Translations under genes and position numbers: made by a program
The notes under the pieces: model-generated
The model's database searches: none
Told to the model about the DNA's origin: nothing
The model's input: the letters and a program-made list of their open reading frames with translations, nothing else
Part shown: positions 1,370 to 63,763 of the stretch, in pieces
Layout of the letters: the number at the start of each line of letters is the position of its first letter
Numbering within the stretch: the stretch's first letter is position 1
Origin: Saccharothrix carnea
GTDB lineage: Bacteria > Actinomycetota > Actinomycetes > Mycobacteriales > Pseudonocardiaceae
Length of the DNA stretch: 64,000 nucleotides
Direction: 5' to 3'
Assembly: GCF_003014735.1 (NCBI RefSeq)
Contig: NZ_PYAX01000007.1
Span: forward strand, 434,001-498,000

Positions 1370-2626
1370 ATGAGGGGCAAGGGCCATCGGTTGGCCGCCG
1401 CAGGGGGCGCCGCGCTGATCGCGACGTCCGTGCTGGCGGGTTGTGGTTCGGGTGACGGCGGGATCACCATCAACGTCTACAAGTACCCGCAGGAGAACTT
1501 CCAGAAGATCGTCGACAACTGCAACGCCCAGGCCGACGGCTACGAGATCGTCTACCACAAGCTGCCGCGCGAGGCGGACGGCCAGCGCGAGCAGATGGTC
1601 CGCAGGCTCGCCGCCGGGGACGCCGGCATGGACGTGCTGGCGCTCGACGTCACCTGGACCGCCGAACTGGCCAAAGCGGGCTGGATCAAGGAGTTCACCG
1701 GCCAGGCCAGGTCCGAGGTCGAGGACGGCACGCTGGAGACGCCGCTGGAGACCGCCCGCTACGAGGGCAAGCTGTACGGCGCGCCGGACAACACCAACGT
1801 CCAACTCCTCTGGTACCGCGCGGACCTCGTGCCCACCCCGCCGAAGACGTGGGACGAGATGATCGAGCTGGGCGCGAAGCTCCAAGCGGACGGCAACGAC
1901 AAGACGCCGGGCCTGGTCGCCGCCCAGGGCAAGCAGTACGAGGGCCTCGTCGTCCTCTACAACACCCTGGTCAGCACCGCGGGCGGGCAGATCGTGGACG
2001 ACAACGGCACCAAGGCCGTGGTCGACGACGGCGCGGTCAAGGCGCTGGAAGTGCTCAAGAAGTTCGCCACCTCCGACGTGGTCGACCCGTCGTTCTCCAA
2101 CGCCGCCGAGGACGACGCCCGGCTCGCCATGGAGGGCGGCAAGGCGGCGTTCATGCTGAACTGGCCGTACGTCTACGCCGCCGCGCAGAAGGTCGAGACC
2201 ATCGCGCCGCACCTCAAGTGGGCACCCTACCCGTCGATCGACGGCGACCCGGCCAAGGTCACCGTCGGCGGCATCAACTACGCGGTCAGCGCCTTCACCG
2301 AGCACACCGAGGAGTCGTTCGACGCGGTGCTGTGCCTGCGCAGCGCCGAGCACCAGAAGTTCGCCGCCATCAACGACGGCGTGCCGCCGACCATCGAGTC
2401 CGTCTACGACGACCCGGAGATGGCCGAGCCGTACCCGATGAAGGAAGCGATCCTGGAGACGCTGAAGAACGCGAGCGTGCGCCCGCGGACCCCCGCCTAC
2501 CAGAACGTCTCCACCGTCATCTCCACGATCCTGTCGCCACCGGCGGGCATCGACCCGCGGGGCACCGCCGAACGGTTGCGCACCGAGCTGCAGGACGCGC
2601 TCGACTCGAAGGGGGTGCTGCCGTGA
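1370..2626 (+). CDS. lpqY: Trehalose-type ABC transporter substrate-binding lipoprotein
   Basis: This 418-residue extracytoplasmic solute-binding protein starts with a lipoprotein signal ending in the lipobox LAGC (acylated Cys25). It belongs to the carbohydrate-binding family 1 fold. Segments such as [41 protein letters not shown] and RPRTPAYQ match what I recall of mycobacterial LpqY, which captures trehalose outside the cell. The ATG at 1370 follows a good ggaagga site; upstream in-frame starts would spoil the signal peptide. It is the first of four coupled genes (binding protein, two permeases, ATPase), the same order as lpqY-sugABC. Trehalose as substrate is inferred from resemblance; maltose or another disaccharide is possible. 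Confidence 0.88.
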
Positions 2627-3570
2627 GCCACGCTGTGAAGACCGACAACGCCGAACCTGCGCTCCCGCCGAAGGCCAAGGCCGCGCTCAGCGAGGGCAAG
2701 AGAGCCGAACGGCGGCTCGGCCTGCTGCTGTGCGCGCCCGCGATCCTCATCATGGCCGCCGTCGCCGGCTGGCCGATCCTGTACTCGCTGTGGCTGTCCC
2801 TGCAGCGCTACGACCTGAAGTTCCCCGACCGCACCGAGTTCGTCGGCCTGGAGAACTACGTCACCGTGCTGTCCAACCCGTACTGGTGGAACGCCATGTG
2901 GGTCACGGTGCTGATCACCGTGGTGTCCGTGGCGGTCGAACTGGTGCTCGGCATGGCGCTGGCGCTGATCATGCACCGCACGCTGGTCGGCCGCGGCATC
3001 GTGCGCACGTCCACGCTCATCCCGTACGGCATCGTGACGGTCGTCGCCGCGTTCTCCTGGCGCTACGCCTGGACACCGCGCACCGGCTACCTGGCCGAGA
3101 CGATCGCGGGCGGCGACCCGGTGCTCACCGAGAAGATCCCGGCGATCATGGTGGTGACGCTGGCCGAGATCTGGAAGACCACGCCGTTCATGGCGCTGCT
3201 GCTGATGGCGGGCCTGGCGCTGGTGCCCGACGACCTGCTCAAGGCCGCCGCGATGGACGGCGCGAGCGCGTGGCAGCGGTTCACCAAGGTGATGGTCCCG
3301 GTGATGAAGCCCGCGATCCTGGTGGCGCTGCTGTTCCGCACGCTCGACGCGTTCCGCATCTTCGACAACCTGTTCGTGCTCACGGCGGGCTCGCAGGGCA
3401 CGTCGTCGGTGTCGATGCTGACCTACAACAACCTGATCAAAGGTCTGAACCTGGGCATCGGCTCCACCATGTCGGTGCTCATCTTCATCGCGGTGGCGAT
3501 CATCGCTTTCGTGTTCGTGAAGCTGTTCGGCACCGCCGCACCCGGCGGCGACGGCGGGGGGAGGCGCTGA
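2623..3570 (+). CDS. sugA: Sugar ABC transporter permease, SugA/MalF-like
   Basis: This 315-residue inner-membrane permease has about six membrane helices and one copy of the EAA loop ([15 protein letters not shown], near residue 210) that docks on the ATPase. The N-terminal 30 residues are charged and cytoplasmic. The GTG start overlaps the lpqY stop by 4 nt (GTGA), implying translational coupling. By position and sequence it pairs with the next gene as the heterodimeric channel of a carbohydrate importer. MalF-type proteins are often longer; the short periplasmic loop here is typical of actinobacterial SugA. Confidence 0.88.
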
Positions 3571-53568: not shown

Positions 53569-55056
53569 TCACTCGGCCAACGGAATCCGCACCTCGAACA
53601 CAGCCCCGGACACCTCCGCACCGTCCCGTCCGGCCGCGTCGGACACCACCTCCGGCCGCGAGACGCCCGCGCCCCGCGGTTCCGGGGTGGAGTCGTCGTC
53701 CCCGGCCACGTCGGGCGCAGCGCTCCCGCCGACCGGGGCCATGCCTGGCCGGCGGTCGTCAGTCACATCGGCGACGGCGTCGGGTTGTCCCGCACTCGCC
53801 ACCGGGTACGGGTCGGCGACTGCACGGTGTTGCCCGGGGGCGATGCACGACAGTTCGCCGCCGTGCGCCCGCACCACGCCGCGGGCGATCGGCAGGCCGA
53901 GGCCCGATCCGCCGGAACGCTGGTCCCTCGCCTCGTCCAGCCGCACCAGCCGGTCGAAGATGCGTTCCCGGTCCTCCATCGGCACGCCCGGACCGTTGTC
54001 GGCCACGACGAACACCGCGAAGCCGCCCTCCCGGGACACGCGCAGCCTGACCCGACCCGACAGGCCGGTGGCCTGGCGGGCGTTGTCGGCCAGGTTCGCC
54101 AACACCTGCGCCAACCGCTGCGGGTCGCCCCGGACGAACGCGGGCTCACCCTCGGCCGCGATGTCGAAGTCCGGCGCGAGCAGCTGCGTCCGCCCAACCT
54201 CGGCCTCGGCCAACGCGAGCAAGTCGACCCGTTCCCGGTGCAGTTCGAGACCGGCCTCGATGCGCGCCAGCGCCAGCAGGTCGTCCACCAGCCGCCCGGC
54301 CCGCCGCGACTCCCGCACCAGCAGCAGGTTCAACCGCTCCCGCTCCTCGGCACCGGCCGTCTGCATCAAGGCCTCCGCGACCGCCTGCACGCCCGCGATG
54401 GGTGTCCGCAACTCGTGCGCCGCGTCGGCCACGAACCGCTTCGTCCGCTCCTCCGATCCCTCCAACGAGTCCAGCATGTCGTCGAATGCGGCAGCCGTGC
54501 GGCCGAGTTCGTTGTCCGCCCGCGACGGGTTGAGCCGGGAGCCCCGGTTGCCGCGCGCGATCGAACGGGCCAGCGTGGTCATGGCGTCCAGGGGCGCCAG
54601 CGCACGCCGGACCGTCAACACCATCGCCCCGGCCGTCACCGCCAGCGCACCGAACCCGACCAGCAGCAACAACCGCCGCAGCCTGGTCTGCGCCGCCGTG
54701 ATGACCGACGACTCCGCGTACACCGTGATCGTCGATCCGTCGATCAACTGCCTGCTGACTTCGTTCGCCACCTCCTCGTCCGGCGCGTTCCCGAACACCG
54801 TCCCGTCCGGCATGACCAGCCGGACCTCCACCCCCCGGCCTTCCAGCCGGTCCACCAGGTCCGCACCGCGCACCCGCTGCTTGACCAACTGCTGCGCCAC
54901 CCGCGCCTTCTCCAGCAGCGCGGTGTCGACGTCCCGCTTGGACTGCGCCGCGAACAGCGCGTCCACCGACAACACGACCCCGATCAGCACCACGGCGAGC
55001 ACACCGATCGCGGAGAGCGTGACCCGCCGACGCAGCGAGACGGTCCGCAGGCTCAC
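53569..55056 (-). CDS. Two-component sensor histidine kinase with a long insert in its ATPase domain
   Basis: This 495-residue membrane kinase has helices at about 12-33 and 128-148, a HAMP region, HisKA with DAAHELRTPIAG (phospho-His), and HATPase motifs NLADNARQA (N), DNGPGVP (G1) and GGSGLGLPIA (G2). An unusual insert of about 80 residues (about 404-482, low-complexity D/P/G/A-rich) lies before the final strand GAVFEVRIPLAE. Its GTG overlaps the response-regulator stop by 4 nt (GTGA). Signal unknown. Confidence 0.92.
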   Translation of the reverse strand: MSLRTVSLRRRVTLSAIGVLAVVLIGVVLSVDALFAAQSKRDVDTALLEKARVAQQLVKQRVRGADLVDRLEGRGVEVRLVMPDGTVFGNAPDEEVANEVSRQLIDGSTITVYAESSVITAAQTRLRRLLLLVGFGALAVTAGAMVLTVRRALAPLDAMTTLARSIARGNRGSRLNPSRADNELGRTAAAFDDMLDSLEGSEERTKRFVADAAHELRTPIAGVQAVAEALMQTAGAEERERLNLLLVRESRRAGRLVDDLLALARIEAGLELHRERVDLLALAEAEVGRTQLLAPDFDIAAEGEPAFVRGDPQRLAQVLANLADNARQATGLSGRVRLRVSREGGFAVFVVADNGPGVPMEDRERIFDRLVRLDEARDQRSGGSGLGLPIARGVVRAHGGELSCIAPGQHRAVADPYPVASAGQPDAVADVTDDRRPGMAPVGGSAAPDVAGDDDSTPEPRGAGVSRPEVVSDAAGRDGAEVSGAVFEVRIPLAE

Positions 55057-55736
55057 GTCTCGTCCGCCCGCAGCACGTACCCGAGCCCCCGCACGGTGTG
55101 CAGCAACCGCGGGCCGTGCTCCTCCAACTTCCGGCGCAGGGCGCTGACGTGCACCTCGACCAGGTTGGGGTCGTAGTCCTCGTAACCCCAGACCGCGGTG
55201 AGGATCTGCGTCTTGCCCACCACCCGGCCCCGCTGCGCGGCCAGGTACCGCAGCAGGCGCAGCTCGGTGGCGGTCAACTCGACCGGCACGTCACCCCGCA
55301 GCACCACCGCCGAATCGGCGTCCACCACCAGGTCACCGATCTGGACGGTGGACGGCGTCCGCCCCAGCCGCCGCAGCACCGCGCTCACCCGGGCGACCAA
55401 CTCGGCCAGCACGAACGGCTTCACCACGTAGTCGTCCGCACCCCGGTCGAGCCCGCGCAGCCGATCGGACACGCCGTCCCGGGCGGTCAGCATCACCACC
55501 CCGGCACCGGACGCCCGCCGGATGACGTCCAGGAGCATGAAGCCGTCCCGACCGGGCAGCATCACGTCGAGCACCACCAAGTCCGGCCGGAACCGGACCA
55601 GCTCGCCTTCCAAGTCACGACCGTCCGGCCGCACCTGCACCTGGTAACCCGCATCCCGCAAGGCGGAACCCACCGCGGCGGCGATCGCCTCCGCGTCCTC
55701 GATCACCAGCACCCTGGCAGCAGTCGACACCTCCAT
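55053..55736 (-). CDS. OmpR/PhoP-type response regulator
   Basis: This 227-residue regulator has a receiver domain with Asp57 (VVLDVMLPGRDG) as phospho-acceptor and Lys in VVKPF, and a C-terminal winged helix (ELTATELRLLRYLAAQRGR, VEVHVSALRRKLE, VRGLGYVLRA). It works with the kinase encoded next, on the same strand, overlapping by 4 nt. The ATG at 55736 has a weak ribosome site. Confidence 0.93.
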   Translation of the reverse strand: MEVSTAARVLVIEDAEAIAAAVGSALRDAGYQVQVRPDGRDLEGELVRFRPDLVVLDVMLPGRDGFMLLDVIRRASGAGVVMLTARDGVSDRLRGLDRGADDYVVKPFVLAELVARVSAVLRRLGRTPSTVQIGDLVVDADSAVVLRGDVPVELTATELRLLRYLAAQRGRVVGKTQILTAVWGYEDYDPNLVEVHVSALRRKLEEHGPRLLHTVRGLGYVLRADET

Positions 55737-56158
55737 ATTCTGCGTCGCGTCGCCTGCCACGGCGGTGAAGCCGCGACAAGCCTGACCAAACCGACTTCCC
55801 CACACTGCACGCCCCGCCACCGGTCGACCTGCAACCGGATGCGACCGCCCCATACGGACCACCGACCGACCATGCGGTCAGTCAGGCGGTCAGCGCCTCG
55901 CCGACCGCCCCTCGGACCGACCGCGCGATCGGCCAGCCGATCTGCCGACCCGCAGACCGTGGGCCTGCCGACCGACCCGCCGACGACCGACCGACCGTGC
56001 GCCTGCCGACCGACCGTGCGGGGTGACCGACCCGCCGGTCGACCCGCACGGTCGTCCGACCGCGTCGTCCGACCGCGTCGTCCGACCGCGTCGTCCGACC
56101 CGAGCGACCAACCCCAGCGACCGACCGTGCGTGCCGGCGTTGTGGGCTGGGCGTTGTG

Positions 56159-56201: not shown

Positions 56202-56320
56202 GTCCGTGGACCCCGCGGGCACCTCGTGTCGACGGGCGGTGGCCGACGACCGGTGTGCCTGTGGGGTCGGAATCCGATGTGGACGGGAACTGGGCGGGTG
56301 GGCGTGGTGTGGAGCCGTGA

Positions 56321-56370
56321 GACCAGTATCGAACAGCAGTTCGAGGGTGGGCAAGATCACGATCGAGTGA
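56321..56370 (-). promoter_or_regulatory. LexA-controlled promoter, copy 1 (leftward)
   Basis: On the reverse strand TTGCCC (56354-56349) and GATACT (56330-56325) are separated by 18 nt, and a perfect SOS box TCGAAC-TGCT-GTTCGA (56329-56344) occupies the spacer. 39 of 50 positions match copy 2 at 60767-60816, including the TCACTCG-N3-GTGATC block. The placing is a textbook LexA operator. Transcription would run left through a noncoding region. Confidence 0.75.
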
Positions 56371-56439
56371 TGTTTGGGCGGGCGGTAGGTGCCTCCGCCC
56401 CCACGACAACCGACCACCCCGTCTGCGACCATCCACGCT

Positions 56440-56877
56440 GTGGCGGTTCCGCGAAGCCCGGTCAGGTGGGCGCTGGTGCTGCTGGTCGTGGGGCTGACAG
56501 CCGTCGCGGCAGCGGTCGCGTTGTGGTGGCCGCGCACGTCCGCCGAAGTCCGCCGGGCCACCGCCACCGTCGTCGCACCCGCCTCCTGCGGTGACGCGGA
56601 GGCCTACGACCAGGTCGAACTGACGATCGGTGACCGGAAGCACACCGTGAAGCTCGACGGCTGCGGCCACCAGCAGGACGAGGTGGTGGAAGTCGTCCTC
56701 CCCGCCGACACCACCGGCGAGTTCACCGTCCAAGCCGCCGCCAGCACGCCCCAGGGCATGCCGTTCGACGTCCGGCTGACCACGTTGCTGATGTGCCTGA
56801 GCGGCCTTGCCGGCGGCCTCTACGCCTACCTGCTGACCAGGCGCTCTCAGCCCACGGCCTCCGCCGAAGCCGCGTAG
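56440..56877 (+). CDS. Small membrane protein (two helices)
   Basis: This 145-residue protein has an N-terminal membrane helix (about 10-29), an extracytoplasmic domain with two cysteines (PASCGDAEAYDQVE...DGCGHQQ) and a C-terminal helix (about 112-132). No known family. GTG at 56440 is preferred for composition and because gaccat lies 7 nt upstream. Its end overlaps the convergent peptidase by 31 bp. Confidence 0.72.
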   Translation: MAVPRSPVRWALVLLVVGLTAVAAAVALWWPRTSAEVRRATATVVAPASCGDAEAYDQVELTIGDRKHTVKLDGCGHQQDEVVEVVLPADTTGEFTVQAAASTPQGMPFDVRLTTLLMCLSGLAGGLYAYLLTRRSQPTASAEAA

Positions 56878-57746
56878 GTGTTGCACGACGACGTCTCACC
56901 GGTGGTGAACCCGAGCGACGCCCACTCGGACTGGTTCTCCGGGCTGCCGTGGGCGTTCTTCTCCGGCGGCTCCTCCACGGCGTACTGGAAGTCGTCCGCC
57001 GCCTCCTGCGCCAGCCCCGTCCCGATCGACTCGGACGCCGCCACCAGGAACATCCCGGCGAAGCAGTTGGCCTGCAGCTCGATCCGCCGCGACATCTCCA
57101 GCCCCGCCGGCGTCTCCTCACCGGCCGAGACGATCTTGCTGTCCGCCGCGCGCAGCATCCCCGACAACGCCTGCACGTGGTGCCCGTACTCGTGCGCCAA
57201 CGTCGCCAGGTGCGACCCGGCGCGCTCACCGCCACCGTTGTCGCGCAGCCGCCGCGTGGGCATGTAGATGGTCCTGTTGCGACCGCAGTAGTACGCGACC
57301 GCCTCGCTCTCCGCGGGCGCCGAGCCGCACGGTCCCTCCACCAGGTCCGGCGACGTGTCCAGCGCGGGCGGGTCGAACGGCAGGTTCACCTGCTCCAGCG
57401 CCGGCCGCCACGCCTGGTCCAGGCACGCCACCCCGGCCTTGTAGTACGCCGACAGCTCCGCGTCCGACACCCCGAACCCCGGCAACGCGCACGTCACGGC
57501 GGGCAGTCGAACAGGCGCGGTGAGCAGCGGGTGGTCGGCCAGCCGGTGCACGGCACGAGGTCGAGGGGCCTCGGTCTCCGTGGTCTGCGGAACCTGCACA
57601 CCGGGCGCGGCCACCGCGCGACCGTTGATCCGCCGGGACGTTTCCAGCTGCGTGATGCCGCCCAGGCCCAGCACGCACAACACGATCAACGAGAACACGC
57701 CGATGAGGACGATCGGGTTGTTCTTGGGCTCCTCGGGCGTGTGCAC
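56847..57746 (-). CDS. Membrane-anchored neutral zinc metallopeptidase (YpfJ-like), paralogue 1
   Basis: This 299-residue protein has one N-terminal membrane helix (about 10-32) and an extracytoplasmic putative-zinc-peptidase domain with LAHEYGHHVQ (HExxH) and conserved RRIELQANCFAG and paired cysteines. It is about 40% shorter than the next, similar gene and lacks the P/Q-rich tail. GTG at 57746 has ggagga upstream. Substrates unknown. Its 3' end overlaps the small membrane protein gene on the other strand. Confidence 0.88.
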   Translation of the reverse strand: MHTPEEPKNNPIVLIGVFSLIVLCVLGLGGITQLETSRRINGRAVAAPGVQVPQTTETEAPRPRAVHRLADHPLLTAPVRLPAVTCALPGFGVSDAELSAYYKAGVACLDQAWRPALEQVNLPFDPPALDTSPDLVEGPCGSAPAESEAVAYYCGRNRTIYMPTRRLRDNGGGERAGSHLATLAHEYGHHVQALSGMLRAADSKIVSAGEETPAGLEMSRRIELQANCFAGMFLVAASESIGTGLAQEAADDFQYAVEEPPEKNAHGSPENQSEWASLGFTTGETSSCNTYAASAEAVG

Positions 57747-57761
57747 GGTCCTCCAGTCGGG

Positions 57762-59042
57762 TCAGCTGACGTCCGCCGCGCTCGCCACCCAAGTGTTGCA
57801 CGCGCTCGTCTCGTTGTTTTTGAACCCGTGGTTGACCCACGCCGCGTTCTTCTCCGGCGCACCGTGGTCCCGGTTGGGGTAGATCGGGTAGTCGCCCCGG
57901 TTGCCCGCGTCGGTCAGGGCCACCGAGATGACGTCACCGGGCACGGCGCCGTGCGACAGCGGCGCCAGCGTCATCCCGCCGAAGCACGTGGCCTGCAGCT
58001 CCTTGCGCCGGTTCAGGTCGAGGCCCTCGGGGGTGTCCCAGCCGCCCTTCTCGTACTGGGCCTGGCTGGACGCGCGCAGGATGCCGGACAGCCACTGGAT
58101 GTGGTGGCCGTACTCGTGCGCGAGCTGCCCCAGATACTTGCCCGGGTGGTTGGGGTTCGCCGAGCCCTGCTCGTTGGCGTAGTGGTTCGGCGTCCAGTAG
58201 ATCGTGCCGTCGCAGTACATGGCGGTGCGGTCCGGGCCCATGTTGCCGCACGTGTTGGTGATCTGGGACGTCACCATGACCAGCTCGACCGGCTGGTAGG
58301 GCAGGTTCGCGCGTTCGAACGACGGCTTCCACATCGCCTCGATGCACGGCAGCGAGGCGCGCAGGAACCGGTCCTGGCCGGCGGGCGAGTAGTCCATCGC
58401 CGGCAGGGCGCAGCCGTCGATGTTGAACGCGCCGAGGCCCGCGGCGTGGATCGGGTTGTCGCCCAGCGTGATGGAGGCCTTGGGGCCCGCCTTCGGCGTG
58501 CTGGTCGAGGGGGACCGCCTGCTGGTGGTCTCCGCGGACGTGGTCGTCGTCGTGGTGGTCGTGGTGGTGGGTTCGGGCGTGTACGTGTAGCTCGCGTACC
58601 CGGCGTTGCCCGAATCGCTCGCCTCTTTGCTGCCGCTGGTCGCGGCCACGATGCCGATCGTCGCGACGCCGAGCACGAGGAAGCCGACGATCAGCACCGC
58701 CACCAGCGGGCCCTTGCTCTTCTGCCGGGGCAGCGGCGGGTAGGGCATCGGCGCCGGGCCCCAGTTCGGCGGCGGTCCGGCCGGCGGCCCCCAGTTCGCC
58801 GGTGGCGGTTGCGGCATCGCGGGCGCCTGCCCGGGCCACTGGGGAGGCTGCTGGAACTGCTGGGGCTGCTGGAACTGCTGGGGCTGGGGTTGTTGCGGCT
58901 GCGGCCCGGTCAGGGGCGGCGGCTGCTGTGCCGGCCACTGACGGGTCGGCTGGGGCTGTTGCGGGTGCAGCGGGGCGGGCATCGGCGGTGGCCCAACCGG
59001 TCGTGGCGGTGGCCAGCCACCCGGCGGCGGTGGTTGCGTCAT
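57762..59042 (-). CDS. Membrane-anchored neutral zinc metallopeptidase (YpfJ-like), paralogue 2
   Basis: This 426-residue protein has a cytoplasmic P/Q/W-rich tail (about 1-108), one membrane helix (about 112-134), a Thr-rich linker with a run of ten Thr and an extracytoplasmic zinc-peptidase domain with LAHEYGHHIQ, RRKELQATCFGG and cysteine pairs. It matches paralogue 1 in the catalytic region. The Pro/Gln-rich tail is typical of actinobacterial envelope proteins. ATG at 59042. It is upstream of and on the same strand as paralogue 1, 15 bp apart, so they are co-transcribed. Confidence 0.88.
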   Translation of the reverse strand: MTQPPPPGGWPPPRPVGPPPMPAPLHPQQPQPTRQWPAQQPPPLTGPQPQQPQPQQFQQPQQFQQPPQWPGQAPAMPQPPPANWGPPAGPPPNWGPAPMPYPPLPRQKSKGPLVAVLIVGFLVLGVATIGIVAATSGSKEASDSGNAGYASYTYTPEPTTTTTTTTTTSAETTSRRSPSTSTPKAGPKASITLGDNPIHAAGLGAFNIDGCALPAMDYSPAGQDRFLRASLPCIEAMWKPSFERANLPYQPVELVMVTSQITNTCGNMGPDRTAMYCDGTIYWTPNHYANEQGSANPNHPGKYLGQLAHEYGHHIQWLSGILRASSQAQYEKGGWDTPEGLDLNRRKELQATCFGGMTLAPLSHGAVPGDVISVALTDAGNRGDYPIYPNRDHGAPEKNAAWVNHGFKNNETSACNTWVASAADVS

Positions 59043-59117
59043 CGCTGGTGGTCCCCCATATCGCGGATGCCCGAATCAGCACAAGAGCTTAGGGGAACTC
59101 CGCTATTCTCCGCGGCC

Positions 59118-60758
59118 GTGTTGAAAAACTGGGGAGCGGCGGCCCTCTGCGCGGTCGCGCTGTGCACGGGCGTCGGCACGGCGTCGGCGCAGCCGAGCGG
59201 CACGGCCGGACTGCCCGGGACGGTCGGCGCGGACGTGCGGCTCAAGCTGGAGCGCGACGGCAGGCTGACCGTGACCGAGGTGGTCACCGTTCCCGACGGC
59301 GGGACGGCCACCCGGGTCGTTCCGCTGCGCGTGCCCGTCTCCGCCGAGCGCGACCGGGTGTTCCAGGTCGCCGACGTGACCGTGGAAGGCGAGGGCACCG
59401 CTACCGCATCGGACGACGAGCTGACGATCGCACTCCGGCCGGGCACGTCCACCGTCCGGTACTCCGTGATCGGCACGGTCGCGAAGATCGGCGACACGCT
59501 GGAGCTGCGCTGGCAGCCCGCGAGCGGCTGGGACACCGCGCTCGACTCGGTGAAGGTCTCCGTGATCACGCCGGACGCGCCCAGGTCGGTGAACTGCCTG
59601 GCCGGCGAGCCGGGCACGTCCAAGCCGTGCACCAGCGCGGACCTCGGCGACGGGCGCGGCGTGCGGGCCACCGAGATCGGCCTGGCCGCCGGTGAGCGGG
59701 TCGACGTGGCGGTCGGGCTGCAGGAGGGCGCGGCGCCGGCCAACGCGCGGGTGGAGGAGACGTCCGGGCTGGCGGCGGCGTTCGCGTTGACGCCGTTGAC
59801 CGGCGCGGGGCTCGGTGGGCTGGTCGTGCTGCTGCTGGGCGGCGGGTTGTTGTTGTGGTACCTGCGGGGGCGGGACGCGCGGGCGTTGGCCAGTGAGGTC
59901 GGACCGGTGAACGTGCTGGTCACGGACGGCTCCGGGCGGATGGTGTTCGCGTCGCCGGACGGCGTGCTGCCCGGCCAGGTCGGCACCGTGGTGGACGAGC
60001 ACGTGGACGTGGTGGACGTGACCGCGACGATCGTGGACCTCGCGGTGCGCAACTACGTGTGGATCGAAGAGGTGGACGGGCACGACTGGAGGTTCGTGCG
60101 GCGCAACCCGGCCGATTCGTCGCTGTCGGGGTACGAGCGGGCGGTGTACGAGGCCTTGTTGCCCGATGGTGTCAACGCGGTGTCGTTGTCCGAGCTGAGG
60201 GGCAGGCGGATCGACCTCTCTCGCGTGCGGGACGCGTTGTACGCCGACGTGGTGGCGAAGAACTGGTTCGCCCGCCGGCCGGACGCGGAGCGCAGCCTCT
60301 GGTGGTGGGCCGGGGTCGGGGTCGGCGTACTGGGCGCGGCGCTGACGGTGGTGTTGGCGCTGGTCGGTGGTGCGGCGTTGTTCGGGCTGGTGGTCGTGGT
60401 GGCCGGGGTGGCGCTGGCGGTGGGCGCGCGGTCGATGCCCGCCCGGACCAAGCGCGGCAGCGCCTTGTTGGAGCACGTGCGCGGGTTGCGCGGGTACCTG
60501 CACACGGCCACGCCGCAGGACATCCCGGAGTCCGATCGGGAGATGGTGTTCTCGCGGTCGCTGCCGTACGCGGTGGTGTTGGGGGAGACGGAGCGGTGGC
60601 TGGCCACGTTCGCCGGCACGCGGCCGGGGCTGTACTGGTTCGGAGAGGCCGAGCAGGGCGGTGACCTGCGGCGATTCGCGCAGCGGTTCCCGGCGTTCCT
60701 CGGTGCGGTCGACGGTGTGCTGGCGCAGGCGGGGCACTTGCGGTCGCTGCGCGGCTGA
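59118..60758 (+). CDS. DUF2207 membrane protein
   Basis: This 546-residue protein has a signal sequence (GVGTASA cut), an extracytoplasmic DUF2207 beta domain (LKLERDGRLTVTEVVTVP, YSVIGTVAKIGDTLELRWQP), membrane helices at about 226-250 and 390-425, and cytoplasmic parts with YVWIEEVDGHDWRF. It probably acts in envelope maintenance; the function is unknown. TATTCT lies 8 nt before GTG at 59118, a likely leaderless start. Divergent from the peptidase pair. Confidence 0.86.
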   Translation: MLKNWGAAALCAVALCTGVGTASAQPSGTAGLPGTVGADVRLKLERDGRLTVTEVVTVPDGGTATRVVPLRVPVSAERDRVFQVADVTVEGEGTATASDDELTIALRPGTSTVRYSVIGTVAKIGDTLELRWQPASGWDTALDSVKVSVITPDAPRSVNCLAGEPGTSKPCTSADLGDGRGVRATEIGLAAGERVDVAVGLQEGAAPANARVEETSGLAAAFALTPLTGAGLGGLVVLLLGGGLLLWYLRGRDARALASEVGPVNVLVTDGSGRMVFASPDGVLPGQVGTVVDEHVDVVDVTATIVDLAVRNYVWIEEVDGHDWRFVRRNPADSSLSGYERAVYEALLPDGVNAVSLSELRGRRIDLSRVRDALYADVVAKNWFARRPDAERSLWWWAGVGVGVLGAALTVVLALVGGAALFGLVVVVAGVALAVGARSMPARTKRGSALLEHVRGLRGYLHTATPQDIPESDREMVFSRSLPYAVVLGETERWLATFAGTRPGLYWFGEAEQGGDLRRFAQRFPAFLGAVDGVLAQAGHLRSLRG

Positions 60759-61091
60759 CCCGCGTTTCACTCGGAAGTGATCTTGCGCTACCTCGAACAG
60801 CAGTTCGACAATGGACCTATCCCCGAACACGGACCCGAGGGCGGCGGGCGAAGGTTCGGGGGGCGAGGCCGAAGTCGTCCCGGTGTCCACACGCGCCGGC
60901 TCCACCGGGTGGTCGGCCTGCTGAGACAGGCGGTGGTCCGGACCGGTGCGGGCGTGTGCCCGGTCCCGGATGGCCGTCGAGCCGCTGGTCGGCCGGTCCG
61001 AGCCCGGTCGTTCGCGCTGGGCGTAGCGGCACGCTCCGGTGGGTGGGCGACCATCGGGCTGGGCGGTGGTGTGAACCCGTAGGCTGCGTTC
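60759..61091. other. 333-bp intergenic region with a rightward SOS promoter
   Basis: Apart from the LexA-type promoter (60767-60816), it contains no convincing gene. A 37-codon ATG frame at 60811 overlaps the promoter -10, so it is unlikely to be used as a leaderless start there. The M16 peptidase at 61092 has its own TAGGCT box (61080-61085), leaving about 270 nt of possible SOS-induced leader or RNA. Confidence 0.5.
60767..60816 (+). promoter_or_regulatory. LexA-controlled promoter, copy 2 (rightward)
   Basis: TTGCGC (60783-60788) and GACAAT (60807-60812) with an 18-nt spacer and a perfect SOS box TCGAAC-AGCA-GTTCGA (60793-60808) overlapping the spacer and -10. 39 of 50 bp match copy 1. 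It points to the M16 peptidase pair and nudC, 270 bp downstream. Confidence 0.75.
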
Positions 61092-62378
61092 ATGGCGCTA
61101 CCCGAACTGCACAGGTTCACGCTTCCCAACGGTCTGCGGGTGGTGCTCGCACCCGACCGCAGCGCCCCGGTCGTCGGGGTGAGCGTGCACTACGACGTCG
61201 GCTTCCGCTCCGAGCCCGAGGGGCGGACCGGGTTCGCGCACCTCTTCGAGCACCTCATGTTCCAGGGCAGTGAGAGCTTGGAGAAGTTGGCGCACTTCCG
61301 GCACGTGCAGTCCTCGGGCGGCACGTTCAACGGGTCGACGCACCCCGACTACACCGACTACTACGAGGTGCTGCCGTCGGCGGCACTGGAGCGGGCTCTG
61401 TTCCTCGAGGCGGACCGCATGCGGGCGCCGAAGCTCACCGAGGAGAACCTGCGCAACCAGATCGACGTGGTGAAGGAGGAGATCAGGCTCAACGTGCTCA
61501 ACCGACCGTACGGGGGGTTCCCGTGGATCCTCCTGCCGCCGGTCCTGTTCCAGACGTTCCCCAACGCGCACAACGGCTACGGCGACTTCACCGACCTGGA
61601 GAACGCCACCGTGGACGATTGCGCCGCGTTCTTCGACACCTACTACGCGCCGGGCAACGCCGTGCTGACGGTGGCGGGCGACTTCGACCCCGAGGGGGCG
61701 AAGGCACTCGTCGAGAAGCACTTCGGTGACGTGCCCGCCCGTCCGGTGCCGGTCCGGCCGTCGTTCGCCGAGGCCGCGCCGAAGGGCGAGCTGCGCGCCG
61801 AGCACACCGACAAGCACGCGCCGATGCCCGCCATCGCCGTGGGCTACCGGATTCCGGACCCGGTGAACGAGGTCGAGGCCTACCTCGCGTACCTGGTCCT
61901 GGCCGGTGTGCTCACCGATGGCGACGGGTCGCGGCTGCAGCAGCGGCTCGTGCACCGTGACGCGATCGTGGTCGACGTGGGTGCGGGGTGCGGTCTGTTC
62001 GGGCCGCTGGAGGCACGCGACCCGGACACGTTCAGCATCACCGCGATCCACCCGCCGGAGGTCACCTCCGAGCAGGTGCTCGCGGCGGTGGACGAGGAGC
62101 TGCTGCGGTTGGCCGAGGAAGGGCCGACTGAGCAGGAGCTGGCGAAGGTCACCGCGCGCTGGGTGTCGACCATGCACCGCGAGCACGACCGGCTCACCAG
62201 CCGGACGCTGGGCCTCGGGTCGGCCGAGCTGCTGTTCGGGCGGGCCGAGCTGCTGTACGAGCTGCCGGACAAGCTGGCCGGCATCACCACCGACGAGGTC
62301 GCCGCGGCGGCCAAGGCGCTGCGGCCGGACTCGCGCGCCGTCCTGACCCTCAAGCCCGTCGACGGAGGTACCGAGTGA
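61092..62378 (+). CDS. M16-family zinc peptidase (catalytic subunit)
   Basis: This 428-residue protein has the inverted zinc motif HLFEH (H50, E53, H54) and the downstream Glu in VVKEEIRLN, as in active M16B/pitrilysin-like subunits, with a second M16 half-domain. TAGGCT lies 6 nt before the ATG at 61092. The following gene overlaps by 4 nt and encodes the partner without the zinc motif, so the two form a heterodimeric peptidase. Confidence 0.92.
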   Translation: MALPELHRFTLPNGLRVVLAPDRSAPVVGVSVHYDVGFRSEPEGRTGFAHLFEHLMFQGSESLEKLAHFRHVQSSGGTFNGSTHPDYTDYYEVLPSAALERALFLEADRMRAPKLTEENLRNQIDVVKEEIRLNVLNRPYGGFPWILLPPVLFQTFPNAHNGYGDFTDLENATVDDCAAFFDTYYAPGNAVLTVAGDFDPEGAKALVEKHFGDVPARPVPVRPSFAEAAPKGELRAEHTDKHAPMPAIAVGYRIPDPVNEVEAYLAYLVLAGVLTDGDGSRLQQRLVHRDAIVVDVGAGCGLFGPLEARDPDTFSITAIHPPEVTSEQVLAAVDEELLRLAEEGPTEQELAKVTARWVSTMHREHDRLTSRTLGLGSAELLFGRAELLYELPDKLAGITTDEVAAAAKALRPDSRAVLTLKPVDGGTE

Positions 62379-63763
62379 GCGCCCCGACCAAGCACCGCAG
62401 CGCCGAGGAGATCGGCCGTACGGAGCTAGGGCCTCGCCCGTTCCCGGAGCTGGGCGAGCAGCGGGCGGCGGCGGACCTCGACACGATCGACACGACGCTG
62501 GCCAACGGCCTGCGCGTGCTGGCCGTGCGCCGGTCGTCGGTGCCGCTGGTGGAGGTGCGGCTGCGGATCCCGTTCGGCGACCCGGCGTCGACCAGCGTCG
62601 GCTCGACGCACGCGGCCCGCGCCGAGGTGCTGGCGAACACGATCCTCACCGGCACCGCCACCCGCAACCGGGTGGACGTGGACACCGAGCTGGCGCTGGT
62701 CGGCGGTGAGCTGGACGCGGTGGTCGACCCGGAGCGGCTGGCGCTGTCCGGCAACGCCCTGGTGTCCGGTTTCGGCACGGTGCTGGACGTGCTGCGGGAC
62801 GTGCTGACCGGCGCGACCTACCCGGCCGACGAGGTCGAGCGGGAACGCGCGCGGCTGGTGGAGCGGATCCGGTTGGCGCGGTCGCAGCCGAACGTGATCG
62901 CGCGGGAGGCGTTGCAGCGCCACCTGTACGGCGACCACCCGTTCGCCAAGGAGATGCCCGAGGCGGACGAGGTCGCGGCGGTCACGCGGGACGACGTGCT
63001 GGCGCTGCACTCGACGGCCGTGCTGCCGCGCGGGTCGGTGATCGTCGTGGTCGGCGACGTGGCGCCGGACGCGGCGGTGCGCGCGGTCGAGGAGGCGCTG
63101 GGCGGCTGGACCGGCGAGGGCACCGCGGTGGCGTTGTCGCCGCTGCAGCCGGTGCGGGGTGGTGACGTGCTGTTCGTGCACCGTCCCGGTGCCGTGCAGT
63201 CGCAGATCCGGCTCGCCGGGCGCGGCCTGGAGCGCACCGACCCCCGCTACCCGGCGTTGCAGCTGGCGAACCTGGTGTTCGGCGGGTTCTTCTCGTCCCG
63301 GCTGGTCGAGAACATCCGCGAGGACAAGGGCTACACCTACAGCGCGCGGTCGCACCCGGAGTTCACGCCGGGCGGCGCGACGCTGCTGGTGGACGCCGAC
63401 ACGGCGAGCGAGGTGACCGCGGCGGCGCTGCTGGAGACCCGCTACGAGCTGGGCAAGCTGGGCCTGGTGCCGCCGACCGAGTCCGAGGTGGACACCGCGC
63501 GCCGGTACGCGATCGGGTCGCTGCTGACCGCGACGTCGTCGCAGGGCGGGCTGGCGTCGTTCCTGATGAACCTCGCCGGGCTCGGCCTGGACGTGGAGTG
63601 GTTCACCGGGCACCCCGGCCGGCTGGCGGAGGTCACCGTCGAGCAGGTCACCGAGGTGGCGTTGGAGTTCTTCGCGCCGACCGCGTTCACCGGTGTGCTG
63701 GTGGGCGACGCGGAACTGCTGACCCCGCAGCTCCGGGCGCTGGGCGGTGTCACCCTGCCGTGA
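62375..63763 (+). CDS. M16-family peptidase-like protein (non-catalytic partner)
   Basis: This 462-residue protein has the M16 fold but reads AARAEVLAN in place of HxxEH, so it lacks zinc. It has the Arg/Tyr-containing block ENIREDKGYTYSARSHPEF, which in M16B partners completes the active site of the catalytic chain. GTG overlaps the first peptidase stop by 4 nt; its own end overlaps nudC by 4 nt. Confidence 0.92.
   Translation: MSAPTKHRSAEEIGRTELGPRPFPELGEQRAAADLDTIDTTLANGLRVLAVRRSSVPLVEVRLRIPFGDPASTSVGSTHAARAEVLANTILTGTATRNRVDVDTELALVGGELDAVVDPERLALSGNALVSGFGTVLDVLRDVLTGATYPADEVERERARLVERIRLARSQPNVIAREALQRHLYGDHPFAKEMPEADEVAAVTRDDVLALHSTAVLPRGSVIVVVGDVAPDAAVRAVEEALGGWTGEGTAVALSPLQPVRGGDVLFVHRPGAVQSQIRLAGRGLERTDPRYPALQLANLVFGGFFSSRLVENIREDKGYTYSARSHPEFTPGGATLLVDADTASEVTAAALLETRYELGKLGLVPPTESEVDTARRYAIGSLLTATSSQGGLASFLMNLAGLGLDVEWFTGHPGRLAEVTVEQVTEVALEFFAPTAFTGVLVGDAELLTPQLRALGGVTLP

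Follow-up and report, generated by a model that had tools for sequence, protein, structure and literature searches.

A LexA-box promoter pair from Saccharothrix carnea and its genus-wide family with a second conserved palindrome

The window analysed here, a stretch of 64,000 nucleotides from Saccharothrix carnea (contig NZ_PYAX01000007.1, positions 434,001 to 498,000), contains two promoter-like copies in inverted orientation, each with an exact LexA-type box in the spacer between the -35 and -10 elements and a further conserved stretch upstream, which flank a small block of genes. This arrangement raises the question of whether the second conserved stretch is an operator in its own right, and which genes such promoters would serve. 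An earlier note, made from the letters of the window alone, had taken the copies for LexA-box promoters, had supposed that a second factor may bind beside the box and had listed the genes that the pair brackets, an interpretation that is partly supported by the present analysis. The reading preferred here, with a probability of roughly 0.65, is that the copies belong to Saccharothrix-wide composite SOS promoters, in which LexA would act in the spacer and a putative second regulator on a palindrome next to the -35 element.

The promoter pair and the composite family

When recomputed, the reverse complement of 56321-56370 and the segment 60767-60816 share 39 of 50 bases in an ungapped alignment, exactly as had been described, and the runner-up match to the left 50-mer within the window (28/50, opposite strand) overlaps the right copy and is followed by one of 27/50. 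The promoter frames TTGCCC-18-GATACT and TTGCGC-18-GACAAT, each with a perfect TCGAAC-N4-GTTCGA, likewise agree with the TTGCSC-18-GAYAMT pattern of the earlier note. This box occurs in exact form twice in the window, both times in the promoter pair. At up to three mismatches it has 90 matches there, with 26.6 expected by shuffling, and since loose matches are common only exact boxes were counted.

The genome-wide pattern search bore out the earlier suggestion: TCACTCG-N3-GTGATCTTGC at zero or one mismatch has four places in the genome, namely the window pair, C5:25370 and C22:7807, and all of them lie beside a perfect LexA box (at up to three mismatches there are 38 places versus 11 for the reversed control). 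Across 25 Saccharothrix genomes, the pattern GTGATCTTG-N3-9-box retrieved 97 sites in 22 genomes and none when reversed. An open-gap search, allowing 6-36 nt from CACYNGN3GTGA to the box core, listed 105 matches, from which one overlapping duplicate and two matches without CTTG were removed. The resulting 102 composites, found in 22/25 genomes with up to 8 per genome, have a single arrangement, comprising the palindrome CAC-N6-GTGA, CTTG and the LexA box in the -35/-10 spacer. The two sets share 88 sites, and the 14 of the 102 that are not among the 97 differ in the box or carry GTGA(C/G)CTTG. When the full pattern TCACYNGN3GTGATCTTG was searched in the genus, each of its 88 places was found beside a LexA box, which is perfect in 83 and has the first base changed in 5.

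In these 102 sites the placement of the second element relative to the core promoter is fixed. The consensus reads (R)ATCAC-YCGAWM-GTGATCTTGC(C), a short spacer, TCGAAC-N4-GTTCGA, three A/C-rich bases, T, six bases and the predicted start. The -35/-10 spacing is 17 bp in 58 sites and 18 bp in 44 (17 or 18 bp, and 19 bp once, in the set of 97), a GANNNT -10 is present in 99/102 and a purine stands at the predicted +1 in 93/102, which supports the promoter frame proposed from the window across 22 genomes. The palindrome centre, calculated from these spacings, lies at -44.5 or -45.5. The distance from the palindrome to the -35 element is constant and that from the -35 element to the box takes either value; such fixation to the -35 element with a varying box distance fits a factor working with the -35. 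Alignments of 14 loci of the right promoter and 19 loci at priA reveal one near-invariant block, composed of the palindrome, TCTTG and both halves of the box. The anatomy, its conservation and the fixed geometry are read directly in the sequence, and the second conserved site suspected beside the LexA box is strongly supported by conservation across the genus.

The exact palindrome GATCAC-N6-GTGATC has 7 places in the genome, of which 2 are composite; no exact LexA box was found near the other 5. Several near-matches to the palindrome form a separate repeat-like family around GATCACYCGATCGTGWWC (L123-L128, near 2000-2100), with an AACRCYGTTT-like stretch nearby.

The predicted +1 coincides with ATG or GTG in 56/102 sites, distributed unevenly over the loci (left 18/20, priA 17/19, an orphan protein 12/12, right 0/16, penicillin-binding protein (PBP) 1/14). 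A leaderless protein behind every promoter was rejected, because the start codon at +1 is found in only these 56 sites and in none of the right ones. As 56316-56318 of the window reads ACG and neither ATG nor GTG, the leaderless small open reading frame (ORF) of the left locus seems lost in this strain.

Features of the promoter pair and its surroundings (window coordinates)
Feature	Position	Strand	Remarks
Response regulator (start near 55730/55736) and histidine kinase	53569..55736	-	OmpR type, under MtrA/MtrB cut-offs
Left transcription start, A of ACG	56318	-	predicted
Left -10 GATACT	56325..56330	-	shares final two bases of LexA box
Left LexA box TCGAACTGCTGTTCGA	56329..56344	-	exact box within -35/-10 spacer
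Left -35 TTGCCC	56349..56354	-	18 nt to -10
Left palindrome TCAC-TCGATC-GTGA, putative second operator	56357..56370 (extended form 56355-56372)	-	centre -45.5 (calculated)
Bracketed block: small ORF (+), two Zn_peptidase genes (-), DUF2207 gene (+)	56389..60758		neither promoter of the pair reads inward
Right palindrome TCAC-TCGGAA-GTGA, putative second operator	60767..60780	+	sequence conservation
Right -35 TTGCGC	60783..60788	+	18 nt to -10
Right LexA box TCGAACAGCAGTTCGA	60793..60808	+	exact box
Right -10 GACAAT	60807..60812	+	
Right transcription start, ATC	60819	+	predicted
Two M16-family peptidase genes	61092..63763	+	

By sequence, the boxes are LexA boxes, as had been claimed, because the same box is found at lexA and near genes for a 2OG-Fe(II) oxygenase and an intein-bearing radical-SAM protein. 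The 8.9-Mb genome carries 19 exact boxes versus 0 for the reversed pattern, and one of them (L019) sits between the divergent lexA and LysM genes, the lexA product scoring 250.7 bits against TIGR00498 (cut-off 110.95). Neighbouring genes, chosen by position and not by expression, were examined at 14 of the 15 non-composite boxes, the remaining one (L030) having no ORF that passed the filter. Besides the oxygenase, presumably of AlkB type, and the radical-SAM protein, they include genes for a mycothiol-S-transferase/DinB_2 protein and an endonuclease/exonuclease/phosphatase protein, and a gyrB/parE-type gene adjoins the box of L017.

Loci, downstream genes and distribution

Sorted by flank comparison, the 102 sites fall into 16 loci, and the motif is therefore not explained by descent of one region. 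The left window locus is present in 20 genomes, priA in 19, the right window locus in 16, PBP in 14 and the orphan protein in 12; of the remaining loci three occur in 4 genomes, one in 2 and seven in 1. The left site is present in every one of the 16 genomes that have the right site, so that the window pair is conserved in 16/25 genomes, with the inverted copies 4.4-4.5 kb apart. Both promoters point outward, and the bracketed genes are not supported as the ones affected; downstream lie the two-component system on the left and the M16 peptidase pair on the right.

The leader from the left promoter to the response regulator gene is about 0.59 kb long. A GACCGACC-type repetitive stretch lies inside it at 55860-56110, and some relatives (e.g. 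L188) seem to have a much shorter leader. On the right, the ATG of the first M16 gene stands 273 nt downstream of the predicted start and is preceded by TAGGCT with a 6-nt gap, as it is in 14/14 aligned right loci; similarly, TCTGGTAGACCT is found upstream of the priA start in 18/19 aligned loci. Since the M16 and priA genes thus have promoter-like sequences of their own, the composites would add a damage-dependent transcript. The identities of PriA and of the class A PBP come from one representative each (L032 and L140), whose NCBIfam scores are under the equivalog cut-offs, and were extended to the rest by flank similarity.

The orphan protein (L023:2181-2990, minus strand) is fast-evolving, with an ATG at the predicted composite +1 in 12 genomes and a length of 86-335 aa in the 11 genomes measured. 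Three members compared with Pfam and two compared with NCBIfam gave no match, and most of 11 aligned members have the motifs RHRxLSPxQIRWxRWK near the N-terminus and GDLARWWDEAxARLDA near the C-terminus. Composite or composite-like promoters at L145, L178, L189, L201 and L209 were grouped by their flanks; at L201 the promoter faces into the end of a glyoxalase-family gene in antisense direction, and three others of these five are followed by long open frames. Apart from these loci, ARAGORN gave a tRNA-like match with an incomplete anticodon at 8-99 of the window, which is probably false.

In a sample of the family, GATCTTG-N3-9-box was found in 6/150 genomes and 2/46 genera. One genome of another genus (G076) has three such sites with CCACTCGATCGAGATCTTG in place of the palindrome, and two further genomes of its genus yielded no GATCTTG-box sites. 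These three (L063, L069 and L075) are near-identical GATCCACTCGATCGAGATCTTGCC-box elements, each followed by GGAGTCATG. A sample of the order, comprising 397 genomes with 6 of Saccharothrix (4 with sites), contained no composite arrangement in other genera. A loosened pattern gave 7 matches in six other-genus genomes of this sample; six of the seven were rejected as composites because CTTG is missing after GTGAN, and a match in G100 was rejected since it has GTGAGCTTG but its box lies about 12 nt farther away than in composites. The two matches in G095 are not independent because they lie in a shared repeat (85% over 385 bp). This repeat carries a LexA-type box and was seen in L280 near 2500-2900 (plus strand) and in L281 near 2450 (reverse strand).

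The composites probably arose within Saccharothrix, since at this locus no box was seen in two Umezawaea records and in S. coeruleofusca and the upstream part is changed in S. yanglingensis. Both Umezawaea records have only 22 nt between the end of the DUF2207 match and the M16 match, and the stretch scanned there contained no box at up to one mismatch. No box was seen at the window-pair locus of S. coeruleofusca, and S. yanglingensis has there the left box only, with its upstream part altered.

A second regulator and the alternatives to it

Proposed on top of this anatomy are control by LexA, a second protein acting as activator or repressor, and the genes served. LexA bound to the 16-bp box within the -35/-10 spacer would block RNA polymerase, and RecA-driven cleavage of LexA, to judge from known LexA biology, would free the promoter. 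The putative second protein would read (R)ATCAC-YCGAWM-GTGATC abutting the -35 element, a position that would suit either a class II activator or a second repressor. The leftward transcript would then comprise a 0.6-kb leader and the two-component system, and the rightward one a 0.27-kb leader and the M16 peptidase pair, where the composite may supplement the promoter-like sequence that the M16 gene has of its own.

Several observations weigh against this proposal. Nine of the 97 sites fail CACYNG and are hence absent from the 102; five of them are one locus group, with GTGATCTTG kept and the left half missing, and the other four (L161, L162, L198, L201) have an altered left half, so some sites lack a complete dyad. 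The middle of the palindrome, YCGAWM, is conserved yet asymmetric. When up to two mismatches are allowed, 668 places per strand in the genome match GATCAC-N6-GTGATC, versus 69 for the reversed pattern, and the palindrome alone is therefore no rare word. Because it is so common by itself, its tie to LexA rests on the longer CTTG pattern, and the searches of the genus covered the palindrome only together with CTTG or the box. Three of the 25 genomes are without a composite despite having 10, 11 and 10 LexA boxes. The remaining neighbours of the non-composite boxes are without a known damage role (among them a glycosyl hydrolase 18, TetR regulators, an AhpC/TSA protein, a tRNA-editing protein, an AICARFT enzyme, DUF520, a methyltransferase and an ABC transporter), and one box neighbour of 685 aa has no Pfam match. 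The consulted passages of the Streptomyces venezuelae LexA study do not mention priA, and the selected members in its Table 1 include none of the composite targets (PMC9380542).

Among candidates for the second protein, a LexA paralogue comes to mind, since a second LexA_DNA_bind match above cut-off (LexA2) is found in all 25 genomes of the genus. In this genome LexA2 (L238:1078-1785, minus strand) is full-length, scores 206.5 bits against TIGR00498 and retains GDSM, ATVKV and AAG at a cleavage-like site, which we take to be the residues of a self-cleaving LexA. At what we take to be the position of the recognition helix it reads SSSSVSKHL versus STSSVAHQL in LexA, a difference by which LexA2 may have its own operator. 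With LexA on the spacer box, LexA2 might thus occupy the palindrome, as a co-repressor or as an activator resembling gp6 of phage GIL01. In G076, the only genome of another genus seen with GATCTTG-box sites, the GTGA half is missing from these sites and the single LexA-type match is 57% identical to LexA2. A precedent comes from gp6 itself, a truncated homologue of LexA. The phage protein depends on a lysine of its recognition helix and binds a CAC/GTG palindrome centred at -43.5 at a LexA-repressed promoter (PMC6182141, as far as its consulted parts go). However, LexA2-like proteins of at least 74% identity occur in many of the 150 family genomes, and the composite was seen in Saccharothrix only; LexA2 is also present in the three Saccharothrix genomes without composites, its recognition-helix lysine is arginine in 4 of the 22 composite-bearing ones, and the region upstream of lexA2, as far as its alignment was inspected (18 of the 25 genomes), showed no such palindrome. 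Because of its presence without composites, the lysine swap and the lack of an apparent operator, LexA2 is kept as an unlikely, though not negligible, candidate. Slightly more doubtful still is the fuller picture of an SOS sub-regulon for replication restart and the cell envelope under a double lock, with LexA on the box and LexA2 on the palindrome, where damage would remove or convert both.

It could also be that there is no second protein, and that the conserved stretch is an extended -35 element or an upstream contact for RNA polymerase or its factors. The distance from the palindrome to the TTG of the -35 element, kept in all 102 sites, and the locus group that retains GTGATCTTG without the left half would agree with this, but a simple -35 extension has no need of the outer dyad TCAC-N6-GTGA, and a general polymerase contact would be expected elsewhere too and not beside LexA boxes at 88 of 88 places, which leaves this explanation rather improbable. 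Much further down in likelihood stands the spread of a copied or mobile promoter cassette through the genome, with retention at some sites. The number of sites reached in single genomes, the seven loci confined to one genome and a pair of loci in G150, alike at 45/48 bp and with short further matches in the 400-bp flanks, speak for it, although the G150 pair was chosen for its likeness. When 217 within-genome pairs of different loci were compared with 1000 label shuffles, the free positions were hardly more alike (p on four measures: identical loop 0.16, loop 0.09, centre 0.31, spacer 0.02), and a copy-and-paste origin is not supported. Hardly tenable, and the least probable of all, is the explanation that the enclosed 4.4-kb block has the copies as its inverted ends or for its divergent control; their inversion and near-constant distance in the 16 genomes would suit it, but both promoters face away from that block, the same element is present at other loci, and two Umezawaea records have the DUF2207-M16 order without the box. 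A composite of a LexA box with the operator of a putative second regulator thus stays the preferred reading.

If this holds, the 102 sites would define an SOS branch with a second operator of its own, precise enough for a single-probe test, and its targets suggest a link between DNA damage and both envelope remodelling and replication restart. Should LexA2 be the second protein, the role of the second LexA of these actinobacteria would be explained. The family deserves attention because it offers a clean, testable genus-wide regulon with a putative second regulator.

Comparison with known systems

Within one open-literature collection, nothing was found on a GATCAC inverted repeat with a Streptomyces regulator, no title among the results for Saccharothrix with LexA contained either word, and no such LexA composite was among the results on a second motif or dual regulation. 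The LexA promoters of S. venezuelae share with those described here the TCGAAC-type box and the kinds of genes near boxes, as Table 1 of that study lists alkB, a radical-SAM gene and parE (PMC9380542). Its consulted passages describe no second conserved operator, such as the 102 Saccharothrix sites carry, and the Saccharothrix targets, a two-component system, M16 peptidases, priA, PBP and the orphan protein, differ from the S. venezuelae set given there (PMC9380542).

A close likeness is with promoter P3 of phage GIL01, which is repressed by LexA and where the gp6 palindrome overlaps the -35 element (PMC6182141, in the parts consulted). LexA repression, which is proposed for Saccharothrix, and a CAC/GTG palindrome at the -35 element would be common to both, with a centre at -43.5 in the phage and at -44.5 or -45.5 in Saccharothrix. 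The phage case, however, concerns one promoter, whose LexA boxes stand in tandem (PMC6182141), whereas the Saccharothrix composites are a chromosomal family at many loci, with a single box in the spacer and a second protein that is putative. Colicin E8, controlled by LexA and AsnC, and the pore-forming colicins, controlled by LexA and IscR, resemble them in that a second regulator times the SOS output, but there the genes are those of plasmid toxins, the assembly that AsnC forms is large, and the abstract of that study mentions no fixed palindrome at the -35 element (PMC4482635). Similarly, DdiA of Myxococcus xanthus is a second regulator beside LexA in the DNA damage response, but belongs to the XRE family and acts on a LexA-independent part of that response, and the corresponding abstract describes no LexA-box composite (PMC12288472). 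Thus, LexA promoters with a partner regulator are already known, and the composite of Saccharothrix, so far seen in this one genus only, would add to them a chromosomal family with a second conserved palindrome.

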